The notes below the pieces were generated by a model, which saw only the letters and a program-made list of their open reading frames with translations, was not told where the DNA came from and ran no database searches. Positions 32,535-35,874 of a stretch of DNA of 64,000 nucleotides are shown here, piece by piece. Source of the stretch: a virus; the IMG/VR virus record IMGVR_UViG_3300011253_000949, positions 1 through 64,000 of that record; one strand, given 5' to 3'. The stretch's first letter is position 1. Each line of letters opens with the position of its first letter. Position numbers and translations under genes: made by a program.

Positions 32535-33283
32535 CTATGCTGCTTCAGAGACAAGGTCTCGGATACTGTCTTCCGAAGCATGATTTGGCAACTCAATTTC
32601 TTGAGCCCAGGTGGGGTAGAAGATGCTCAAGTTACCGCCAAGCTTGACAGTATCATGTGCAATATCAGGGTGTTCTTGCCACTGAACAGCCTTGACCAGA
32701 TGTTTATTCACATACTGCAAGATCTCAATATCATCAGGGATCAGATAATATTGCGCATCATGGATGTGAGCGATCGGTCGGATCTGTAGTCTGTGTTTGC
32801 CTGCACGGACTGTCTTCATGAATTCAGAAGCAGCTCGTGTGTTGAGCAAGCACCAAGATTGACCCAAAGCATTACCGGCAGTACGGCCTTCGGCCTCTGC
32901 CTCATAGGGTGTTGCAGAATTACCGCGGATAACTTGGTGGAGCAATGGTGTGCGAACACGCAAACCAAAGGCAGCACTAACATAGCCTGTACGTGAGGCT
33001 TCATCGAGCTTGGTTGCTACCCACTCATCACTCACTTTGTAGAGCTCGTGATATTTGTGCTCGATCTGCTGAGCGACAACTTTAGAGAAGCCACCTTTTG
33101 CCATCAGGGTGATGTAGGTTCCTTGGTAAGTTCATTTCTCTCATCCCCCCCCTAGTTTACTAGGGGGGGTCAGAGAGTGAGAGCGAAGGTTGGCATCTTG
33201 CTCTCTTGGCGCTCCTCTGAATACAATGTTTTAGTTGAATTAACCCGTTCTTTGTCATGACGTAAAACAGAAATTTCAGTCAC
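32535..33283 (-). CDS. DNA polymerase C-terminal part with 47-nt bypass gap
   Basis: Coding sequence is the join of 33283..33176 and 33128..32535 on the minus strand (233 residues). The first part reads VTEISVLRHDKERVNST...SEERQESKMPTFALT and the second YQGTYITLMAKGG...; together they restore family-A motif B (R-Q-x-x-K-x-P-T-F-A-L-T-Y-Q-G). Motif C is IHDAQYY. The zero frame hits TGA one codon after the ACT at 33178, and the downstream frame has TGA immediately before the ACT at 33131, so ordinary frameshifting cannot join them. Proposed start is GTG 33283, four bases after the HNH stop (termination-reinitiation). Starting at ATG 33104 instead would lose motif B and so polymerase activity. 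Confidence 0.8.
33129..33178 (-). other. putative translational bypass (byp-like) element in DNA polymerase
   Basis: A 47-nt out-of-frame insertion (33129-33175) follows the ACT codon at 33178-33176 and ends with a second ACT (33131-33129). In between are CTC, TGA, then a 10-bp hairpin with seven C:G pairs, TAG/CTA and a TAAA loop (33169-33146), then a GAGAG stretch resembling the internal Shine-Dalgarno that guides landing in T4 gene 60. Removing exactly 47 nt gives a seamless motif B. Matched take-off and landing codons, nearby stop, hairpin and size all parallel the 50-nt T4 gene 60 gap. Confidence 0.75.
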
Positions 33284-33284
33284 T

Positions 33285-33884
33285 TCACTTATGGTTTGGT
33301 TGATTTTTAGCACCATTTATCCTCGCTCTTTGTACGCGTTGAAAACGTAGGGACTCATTTAAATCTCCTTCAATGCCTAGCTCTTTTGCCATGCGTCTAA
33401 GTTTTACAGACAGGTAAGGAACTTTATACGGAACACGTTGTGAAAGTGACCAATACGATTCTCCATTAATGACAGATTGCAAGCAGTCAAAGAATTCATC
33501 TTTGGTCATTCGATTGGTGTATGTCCGTAGTCCAGTATCGGCAGCATGTTGGCTGTTACCTGAAGAGTTTACCCACTCAAGATTGTGTGTTGAGTTATCA
33601 AAACGGTTCCCATTTTTATGGTTAACTTCAGACAATCCTAGAGAATTTGGGATGTGGGCTTCAGCCACTAAACGATGGACGTAGTGTGATGTGCCTTTCC
33701 CATATTTCCACAAACTGACCTGAAGATATTCAACTTGTTTATTTGAAGAAGGACGCAAAATTTTGCCTTTAAAGGGATAGATGGATCCATCACGTCCTAA
33801 TGTTGACCGATCTACTGAACGTACCGTACCAAGCGTAGAGACTTCGTACAGCCCTTCATAATTAACTACCGGTAAGTAGCTCAT
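33285..33884 (-). CDS. NUMOD4-HNH homing endonuclease splitting the DNA polymerase gene
   Basis: One hundred and ninety-nine residues. An N-terminal NUMOD4 pattern (YLPVVNYEGLYEVSTLGTVRS) is followed by the HNH core VHRLVAEAHIPN...EVNHKNGNRFDNSTHNLEWV and a C-terminal DNA-binding region. The ATG lies inside the last codons of the polymerase N-terminal gene (overlap 23 bases) and the TGA lies four bases before the proposed start of the C-terminal part, so the ORF fills the insertion and leaves no room for an intron core. Insertion boundaries share AGT. Analogous to T4 MobE, which split a topoisomerase gene. Confidence 0.85.
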   Translation of the reverse strand: MSYLPVVNYEGLYEVSTLGTVRSVDRSTLGRDGSIYPFKGKILRPSSNKQVEYLQVSLWKYGKGTSHYVHRLVAEAHIPNSLGLSEVNHKNGNRFDNSTHNLEWVNSSGNSQHAADTGLRTYTNRMTKDEFFDCLQSVINGESYWSLSQRVPYKVPYLSVKLRRMAKELGIEGDLNESLRFQRVQRARINGAKNQPNHK

Positions 33885-35874
33885 ACAGTTCTGCTCCTTT
33901 CATTGATTTGCCCAGATACTCTACATCCTCGTCAGAGTGGAAGTAAATGTTGGTGTTACCTACTTTCGCTTTATAGCAAGTTGCATTTTCAGGGGCTATT
34001 TCGATATCAGGCATACGCTCAGCAAAGTAAGACTGAGCTCTCAGACAGTGTCCGTCAAACCCATCCAAGTAGACTTTTAGCTTGTTAGGATCTTTGGTCG
34101 TGAGAGCGGAGATCATGTCTTCGAGAGAGTTGAAATCCAATCCAATCATGAGCCAACCGTCAGGAGCAGTGAAGCAGCTCTTGATCAGCTTGGCATACTT
34201 GGTTCCTGTGGCAGGAATGGTTTGAAGGTTTGGATTTGAAGAGCTCAGTCGACAGGAAACCGTACCACCCAGGTTGAAGTTACCGAAGAGGTAATGGCAT
34301 CCATCTGGACCTTCTACAGCACTCTCCAACGCAGGGATGAAGGTGGTGTAGATTTTGTCCACTGATTTGTAATCCAACAGAGCATTGATGAGATCAATGA
34401 TGTGAGAATCTTCAGTGTAGGCTTTGAGCTTTTCAAGCACTTCAGCTTTGGTGGCTGGTTGTTTGGTTTTGGTTCTTTCAATGACCGGTAGACCAAGATG
34501 TTCATGCAGAAGGTTCTGCAGCTGATCTGGACTGTTGGGATTGAATTTGTCGGGGTAGTCAGCCAGAACAACACGCTTGATTTTAAGCTCATTGTTCCGC
34601 TTCTCTACCCACTTTTCAGCAAGCATGTAGGTGAAATCTTGGATGTGCTGTTCTTGATAGATACGCTCAAGTGCACTGTCTCGATCCACCTCCAAAAGAA
34701 CCTTGGCCTGAGCCACTTGGTTCATATCGATAGACATACCTGTCAGCTGCATTTGGATGATGTCGATGATTGCTGGCTTGAAGATCTCTTCGTAGAGTTC
34801 CAGCTGATCATCTGCCACCATCTTATCCCACCACTTATGGTACACGTACCACGTGGAGCATGCGTCGATGAGATTGTACTCAAGCAACTCTGGCAAAGGT
34901 ATCTTGGTGATGTCCTTGATCTCTTCAACGGCATAGTTGCCGGCAAACTCTTGAGCCTGATCTTTGAGACCCAGCTTGTTACCGGCACAAGTGTTGGTGG
35001 CGAGATAGGAGATGAGCTTGGTATCATGCCAATTTGAGAGCATGATCTCGAGACCATTGAGCAGACCTTTGGTATCTATCAAATGCTCCATGAAGAGCTG
35101 GTAGATTAAGACTGTGGCATCGTAGCTGATGTTGTGAAACAGGAGAGGTTGCTCAAACTCACAAAAGAATTTGACGAGGAGTTTGCGTACAGCCTCACCA
35201 TGAATTCCCATGTCGATGGCAAAGGCAATGCCTTCATGTTGGTTCCAAGCAAAGCTGATGGTGCCAAGACCTGCACTGTAGTGCTTGAGAGAAAAGGCCT
35301 CAATATCACAGGCCAAAGGACATTGCATGTCCATAAGCTTCTGGAGCCATACAGCGATGTCAGCAGGGGTGTGAGGGTACTCAGCAGTCTTGAGGATGTC
35401 ATGCCCTGGTTCTTGGTAGGTGCCTTTCATATGGCTCCACAGAGCGTCTAATGCAGAGGCAATACGTACCCGGGTAGGTGTCGGGTTGTAGAAGACCTGA
35501 CGGTAGTTTGGCACAAAGATGACATTGAACTGACCAGCCATGCTGGCAGGGAACTTGTTTGGAAGGACGTAGCCAAGATAGGGATCTACCTTAGCCACGC
35601 CTACCAGAGTCTTGAAGTAATCGCTGTCAGTGACAAGGATGTACTTGGTGTCGATCTCACTGAGCAATTCGAGCATGTCAGTGAGAAAGACTTTCTGATC
35701 AACTACCTTGGTTTTCTTGCCAGTTGTGTAGAGCTGGTAAGCAATGACATCTTCAGGATCGATGAGAGAAGGGTCGAGGTACTCTTTGGTCATACCTGCA
35801 CTATCAAGCTTGGGAGCCAAAATGCAGATGGGGTAGGTTGAGTTCTCGTGATCTGTAAATGTCTGGAAGTCCAT
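33862..35874 (-). CDS. DNA polymerase N-terminal part, family A (N4 gp39-like)
   Basis: Six hundred and seventy residues. Proofreading exonuclease motifs: ACDIEAFS (Exo I, about residue 190), FHNISYDATVLI (Exo II), YNLIDACSTWYVY (Exo III). Then TVSCRLSSSNPNLQTIP and polymerase motif A LDFNSLEDMI (about 580). It ends artificially at ELLTGS by running into the HNH insertion; the natural protein continues as SEVTEISVLRHD... in the next ORF. With the C-terminal part the total is about 900 residues, close to N4 gp39. Start overlaps the preceding stop (TAATG). Confidence 0.88.
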   Translation of the reverse strand: MDFQTFTDHENSTYPICILAPKLDSAGMTKEYLDPSLIDPEDVIAYQLYTTGKKTKVVDQKVFLTDMLELLSEIDTKYILVTDSDYFKTLVGVAKVDPYLGYVLPNKFPASMAGQFNVIFVPNYRQVFYNPTPTRVRIASALDALWSHMKGTYQEPGHDILKTAEYPHTPADIAVWLQKLMDMQCPLACDIEAFSLKHYSAGLGTISFAWNQHEGIAFAIDMGIHGEAVRKLLVKFFCEFEQPLLFHNISYDATVLIYQLFMEHLIDTKGLLNGLEIMLSNWHDTKLISYLATNTCAGNKLGLKDQAQEFAGNYAVEEIKDITKIPLPELLEYNLIDACSTWYVYHKWWDKMVADDQLELYEEIFKPAIIDIIQMQLTGMSIDMNQVAQAKVLLEVDRDSALERIYQEQHIQDFTYMLAEKWVEKRNNELKIKRVVLADYPDKFNPNSPDQLQNLLHEHLGLPVIERTKTKQPATKAEVLEKLKAYTEDSHIIDLINALLDYKSVDKIYTTFIPALESAVEGPDGCHYLFGNFNLGGTVSCRLSSSNPNLQTIPATGTKYAKLIKSCFTAPDGWLMIGLDFNSLEDMISALTTKDPNKLKVYLDGFDGHCLRAQSYFAERMPDIEIAPENATCYKAKVGNTNIYFHSDEDVEYLGKSMKGAELYELLTGS

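Follow-up and report, generated by a model that had tools for sequence, protein, structure and literature searches.

A putative ribosomal bypass element, carried with a homing endonuclease gene, in motif B of a phage DNA polymerase

How does a phage make its DNA polymerase when the reading frame is broken inside motif B, in the active site of the enzyme? The question is raised by a stretch of 64,000 nucleotides of viral DNA, hereafter called the window, which belongs to an N4-like (Schitoviridae-type) phage, since all its best relatives in INPHARED are of that type. The polymerase is also split further upstream by an HNH gene, and therefore lies in pieces, the segment between the two interruptions (ORF1) constituting a short gene of its own. 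The features of the locus, all on the minus strand, are the following.

33862 to 35874, minus strand: N-terminal gene of a family A DNA polymerase, 670 aa, which contains motif A and an exonuclease domain (PF00476, E 6e-32; PF01612, E 4e-7; PHROG 17, E 1.7e-116)
33132 to 34000, minus strand: cassette of about 869 bp, comprising the tail of the N-terminal gene, the HNH gene, ORF1 and the gap (blastn of the window against contig L004)
33285 to 33884, minus strand: NUMOD4 and HNH homing endonuclease gene, 199 aa (PF07463, E 5e-11; PF13392, E 7e-8)
33176 to 33316, minus strand: ORF1 of the C-terminal gene, ending at the take-off codon ACT 33178-33176; 47 codons from ATG 33316 or 46 from GTG 33313
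33179 to 33205, minus strand: 5' stem-loop GAGAGC...GCTCTC, adjoining the take-off codon (uninterrupted helix of 6 bp)
33129 to 33175, minus strand: 47-nt gap, with CTC, TGA 33172-33170, the hairpin, a GAG-rich stretch, TGA 33134-33132 and the landing ACT (from the sequence)
33146 to 33169, minus strand: gap hairpin (fold z -5.8; compensatory changes in four other phages)
33138 to 33142, minus strand: Shine-Dalgarno-like GAGAG, 6 nt 5' of the landing codon (from the sequence)
32535 to 33131, minus strand: ORF2, 198 aa with the landing Thr counted, covering the remainder of motif B (TYQGT...), motif C (HIHDA) and the C terminus (PF00476, partial; PHROG 2573, E 7e-34)

The start of the HNH gene overlaps the end of the N-terminal polymerase gene. 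ORF1 ends in ...RQESKMPTFALT, its last codon being ACT 33178-33176, after which come CTC and the stop TGA 33172-33170. The continuation of the polymerase, TYQGTYITLMAKGG..., begins 47 nt later in a different reading frame at ACT 33131-33129, from which it reads TYQGTYITLM... and runs for 198 aa to its stop, while the codon immediately 5' of this ACT is again a TGA (33134-33132). Within the gap lies the hairpin CCCCCCCTAG-TAAA-CTAGGGGGGG (33169-33146), and the 47 nt have a minimum free energy of -26.6 kcal/mol, with a z of -5.8 against dinucleotide shuffles, none of 500 of which was as low. When the 47 nt are taken out, the sequence becomes motif B as found in intact relatives. That the element is an assembly artefact of a single record is ruled out by contig L003/L085, which differs from the window by 2 mismatches in 12 kb and carries an identical copy. 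An earlier note on this locus, made from the sequence alone, had described the end of the open reading frame at MPTFALT-CTC-TGA, the 47-nt gap, the change of frame and the TGA before the landing codon; all of these held, coordinates included, on inspection of the sequence. Its claims that removal of the 47 nt restores family A motif B, and that the gap contains a hairpin and a GAG-rich stretch (GAGAG, 33142-33138), held equally, the former by comparison with intact relatives and the latter with the fold z given above.

The origin of the arrangement can be traced by comparison with the relatives L004 to L006, which are 96% identical to the window and have no cassette, but about 85 bp in its place. 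The blastn alignment of the window with L004 shows 96.4% identity ending at 34001 and 96.0% identity from 33131 on, so that homology resumes exactly where the landing codon begins. Since the HNH gene, the head of ORF1 and the gap are jointly missing from these relatives, the cassette entered as a unit. Downstream it stops where the putative bypass insert ends, as would be expected if the endonuclease cut lies there. Purifying selection is evident from a pairwise dN/dS of 0.07 and from the codon changes accumulated on the window branch since the split from L004: 24 synonymous and 2 non-synonymous before the gap, 12 synonymous and 0 non-synonymous after it. The sequence beyond the gap is thus likely to be under strong purifying selection, an inference weakened by the fact that the cassette may have entered late on the window branch.

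Further loci with an altered motif B were found by a polymerase search, an HNH-profile search and gapped pattern scans. Most relatives have motif B intact. Four divergent phages, together with the window called here the hop phages, carry different hairpin inserts of 40-48 nt at the same codon boundary, with Thr codons on both sides and, in three of them, the same HNH gene just upstream, as listed below.

L051: take-off ACG, 45 nt, landing ACC; HNH gene directly upstream
L116: take-off ACC, 48 nt, landing ACT; HNH gene directly upstream
L118: take-off ACT, 40 nt, landing ACA; HNH gene directly upstream
L221: take-off ACC, 48 nt, landing ACC; no adjacent HNH gene, the C-terminal gene being preceded by an unrelated gene

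In every hop phage, joining the two parts at the Thr codon gives a protein with intact motif B. Take-off and landing codons are the same in the window and L221, and synonymous but different in the other three. A stop follows one codon past the take-off codon in the window, L051 and L116, and 6-7 codons past it in L221 and L118; in none of the five does it follow directly. The HNH protein of the window is 55-62% identical to those of L051 (62%) and of the cultivated Acinetobacter phage nACB1; for the related HNH of nACB1 the identities are 50-55%. The polymerase tree does not unite the hop phages in one clade (AU p 0.0055) and requires five changes for the five phages; this patchy distribution indicates either sideways spread or repeated gain. 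All of them are uncultivated contigs. The same insert was not seen in the cultivated phages inspected in INPHARED, which did not cover all 463 polymerase records; HNH searches of that collection returned nACB1, with an intron, and phages of E. coli or Klebsiella, the inspected E. coli ones having intact motif B, and the search of genome contigs gave three polymerases, all intact.

Two of these genomes show arrangements of their own. L221 (reverse strand, 2497-2700) has kept the hop element without a neighbouring endonuclease, and its ORF1 has its own ATG and exactly 46 codons, matching T4 gene 60. In the L051 phage (L113:2186 to L051:446) the N-terminal gene and the HNH and C-terminal genes lie at opposite contig ends, so that, should the genome be circular, small genes would separate the N-terminal gene from the HNH gene. 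An intron in cis around the HNH gene is unlikely here.

Comparison of the inserts at the RNA level shows that their hairpins keep their pairing through compensatory changes. The five inserts have fold z values against shuffles of -3.0, -3.9, -5.3, -5.8 and -7.0; in the apical stem 49 of 49 cells are paired across the hop phages, with changes on both sides in pairs 2, 6, 8, 9 and 10, while the control combining arms from different phages reaches 75% pairing, falling to 55% in the inner half. These statistics need to be qualified: owing to partly shared descent of the cassettes, they are not fully independent. An uninterrupted helix of 6-10 bp adjoins the take-off codon in six insert-bearing phages, namely the five hop phages and L115 (described below), whereas at the same position 59 of 66 unmodified genes have a helix of 3-5 bp (P = 5e-5, or 0.0025 when based on energy; samples are small and kinship is uncorrected). 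The stem-loop 3' of the landing codon does not exceed in strength that of unmodified genes (P = 0.10-0.43). Purine runs resembling the GAGAG of the window can be read by eye at 5-7 nt in L051, L116 and L221.

The reading frames are equally constraining. In the landing frame the distance from the nearest preceding stop to the landing codon is 0, 3, 7, 0 and 0 codons in the window, L051, L116, L118 and L221, respectively, the landing codon thus following a stop directly in three of the five, and in all five the interval from the last stop to the landing codon is free of start codons. The first landing-frame start comes 9, 15, 104, 6 and 32 codons past the landing codon, in the same order, and independent initiation would therefore lose motif B. 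No KKYK-like nascent-peptide motif is present in the five ORF1 sequences, although other peptide signals are not excluded. Phage tRNAs able to read both Thr codons are lacking in the window, and the only phage tRNA of L118 is tRNA-Arg(CCU).

The reading that we favour is that ribosomes bypass the 47 nt within motif B, a likely interpretation to which we assign a probability of about 0.85. It is inferred from sequence comparison, resting on recurrence at the same site, compensatory changes, closed landing frames without starts, purifying selection, the absence of a second polymerase and the absence of any group I intron match; there is no protein, ribosome-profiling or cDNA evidence. Under this interpretation the mobile cassette would combine an HNH homing endonuclease with a ribosomal bypass element. 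The endonuclease probably cuts phage polymerase genes at motif B, and the hairpin insert at the cut site would remove the target and so protect its carrier; that alleles without the insert are cut and those with it are not remains an inference, its sole support being that unrelated lesions cluster at the site. Ribosomes would read ORF1 to ACT 33178-33176 and stall there, the hairpin then occupying the A site or lying close to it; after take-off they would slide over 47 nt, with the 5' stem-loop refolding behind them, until the peptidyl-tRNA-Thr re-pairs at ACT 33131-33129 and translation goes on with TYQGT... The predicted products are an N-terminal chain and a C-terminal chain with intact motif B, which would have to associate as T4 gp39 and gp60 do.

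Several observations stand against this interpretation. The codon pairs are not identical in three of five cases (ACG/ACC, ACC/ACT and ACT/ACA), the hardest for simple re-pairing being the ACG/ACC of L051, which no standard single tRNA fits well. Moreover, there is no KKYK-like motif and no significant 3' stem-loop, and in L118 and L221 the codon after take-off and the next one are not stops.

Among the alternatives, excision of 40-48 nt from the mRNA, as a tiny intron or otherwise, would yield the same protein, and the group I intron of nACB1 lies within about 5 nt, so that the inserts could be its remnants. It is nonetheless very unlikely. No Rfam match to group I or other introns was obtained in the window or the hop loci, even though the window was searched at loose thresholds (E 0.05 to 1) and the nACB1 intron was detected in the same run. 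The insert starts of the five members share no sequence (CTCTGA, CTCTGA, TGCTAG, GGATTA and CGATGG), and there is no terminal G in either register, so that the U...G borders of group I introns are not met; to our knowledge, no self-splicing intron of 40-48 nt exists. We consider it similarly improbable that the polymerase is dead or decaying and that another one replicates the phage, as might be thought from a frame that, as annotated, is broken by stops. The record shows no other family A polymerase and no family B match, the open reading frames are intact on both sides of the gap in five divergent phages, and the selection ratios reported above (12:0 and 24:2) speak against decay, with the caveat that the cassette could be late. 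Little can be said, too, for a polymerase of three chains with ORF2 started by re-initiation: two-chain split polymerases have a precedent in 43A/43B of an Aeromonas phage (PMC2988022), but in all five hop phages no landing-frame start precedes the landing codon, no start is conserved and the Tyr of motif B would be lost. Finally, frameshifting instead of bypass is ruled out for the hairpin members, as the stop 0-7 codons before landing closes the frame.

Ribosomal bypass is thus retained as the preferred reading, and every available sequence test favours it, as proposed in the earlier note, over the alternatives; it remains an inference. Other claims of that note need adjustment. ACT/ACT holds as the re-pairing pair in the window, but identity is not required elsewhere; a stop near take-off also holds in the window, yet it is not constant, since in L118 and L221 neither of the two codons that follow take-off is a stop. 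T4 gene 60 is a better parallel than had been claimed, the likeness extending to the 46-codon ORF1, the 5' stem-loop, the take-off hairpin and the splitting endonuclease. Close relatives without the 47 nt, which the note had wished to see, were found in L004 to L006, where the whole cassette is absent; use of a different polymerase, which would have refuted the idea, has no support in the record. The note had missed the upstream HNH split, the 5' stem-loop, the same-site inserts of other phages and the cassette-free relatives.

Motif B and its surroundings carry other lesions as well. In L117 (6640-6660), L049 (950-975) and L212 (3996-4017) one extra base produces TTT_C_GCA (UUU_CGC) at motif B, and an HNH gene splits the polymerase, being of the E. 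coli-phage type in L049 and L212. UUU_CGU is the shift site of influenza PA-X. These three divergent phages are possible cases of programmed +1 frameshifting, inferred from sequence, in which the frame would be restored by tRNA-Phe moving +1 from UUU to UUC; they have a strong hairpin 3-6 nt upstream of UUU (P = 0.0035, in a small sample and ignoring shared descent). L115 (6690-6725) has an HNH-split polymerase with a 5-nt insert (ACC TAGCT TAT) and the strongest adjoining 5' stem (10 bp); this may be a very short hop, with landing on GCT, but the gene could also be broken or the assembly collapsed. In nACB1 (L106:3349-4200) a group I intron with a related HNH gene (Rfam RF00028, E 9e-9) interrupts the Leu codon of motif B, about 5 nt from the hop site, and the polymerase appears in GenBank as separate CDSs. 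A different HNH gene at a different split point occurs in Pollock, AlfredRasser, SP5M, PD205 and Pylas (L107-L110 and L249), annotated as an intron or a joined CDS. The HNH of Pollock has been described as intron-encoded (PMC4319500); no Rfam group I intron was found in Pollock or AlfredRasser, the two tested, and the Pollock-type split is therefore probably a gene in pieces. The DNA polymerase of V. cholerae phage JA-1 is also split by an HNH gene (PMC3670811), within an insertion at motif A (L242:11700-12560) that by sequence appears intron-like, motif B being intact downstream.

The hop, 5-nt, +1 and intron lesions of motif B all fall within about 10 bp. On balance, and by a narrow margin, we incline to a bolder reading: motif B of the Schitoviridae polymerase may be a hot spot for homing endonucleases, where inserts that destroy the target have evolved repeatedly and are tolerated via recoding (hops of 40-48 nt, a hop of 5 nt and +1 shifts at UUU_CGC) besides a self-splicing intron.

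The closest known system is gene 60 of phage T4, in which ORF1 has 46 codons and the gap 50 nt (PMC5009743, PMC11194080). Bypass there involves a stem-loop on the 5' side, another one in the A site, and sliding that is processive over up to 56 nt (PMC11194080); the gap is thought to have served as protection from the splitting endonuclease (PMC5009743). The likeness to T4 gene 60 and mobA (split genes 39/60) is extensive: a homing endonuclease splits the gene, the C-terminal gene opens with a 46-codon ORF1, the gap is 40-48 nt compared with 50 nt, and a take-off hairpin, a 5' stem-loop and a Shine-Dalgarno-like purine run near the landing site are present, while the insert is likewise proposed to protect from the endonuclease. 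The UUCG hairpin loop is common to T4 and L051, and the split parts of the L051 phage would be separated as in genes 39/60 if its genome is circular. Unlike T4, the site is motif B of a DNA polymerase, in another phage family and with a NUMOD4/HNH endonuclease, which in the window has no significant similarity to the 37-aa MobA remnant of T4; the putative bypass would use a Thr and not a Gly tRNA, codon pairs are not always identical, no stop directly follows take-off, KKYK is lacking and several divergent versions exist. The 5' stem-loop adjoins the take-off codon here, whereas it ends 10 nt before it in T4.

The byp elements of yeast mitochondria (Magnusiomyces capitatus) are likewise short inserts bypassed by ribosomes, for which non-identical codon pairs are allowed (PMC5009743). 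However, byp elements are mitochondrial, occur in tens of copies per genome and are reportedly context-independent, whereas the inserts described here occupy one site per phage and are linked to an endonuclease. The E. coli Schitoviridae (Pollock, AlfredRasser and SP5M) have the same polymerase split by an HNH gene, but their HNH proteins are only 31-33% identical, their split point is another one, motif B is intact and there is no bypass element; nACB1 shares the motif B site and has a related HNH, but its insert is removed by splicing. What would be new, if the inference is correct, is bypass in the active site of a phage DNA polymerase, with several divergent versions, bypass of the T4 gene 60 type being already known; no account of a phage DNA polymerase with bypass was found in the open-licence literature searched.

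For efficient programmed bypass in phages and bacteria, T4 gene 60 is almost the only example. Several divergent natural versions, located in the active site of an essential enzyme, would sort out its general features, such as the 5' stem-loop, the take-off hairpin, a gap shorter than about 56 nt and the 46-codon ORF1, from those particular to T4, such as the stop after take-off, identical codons and the KKYK peptide. They would also make directly testable the notion that bypass elements are shields against homing endonucleases. If the bolder reading is true, motif B would be a hot spot at which an arms race between selfish DNA and a host gene produces programmed recoding.
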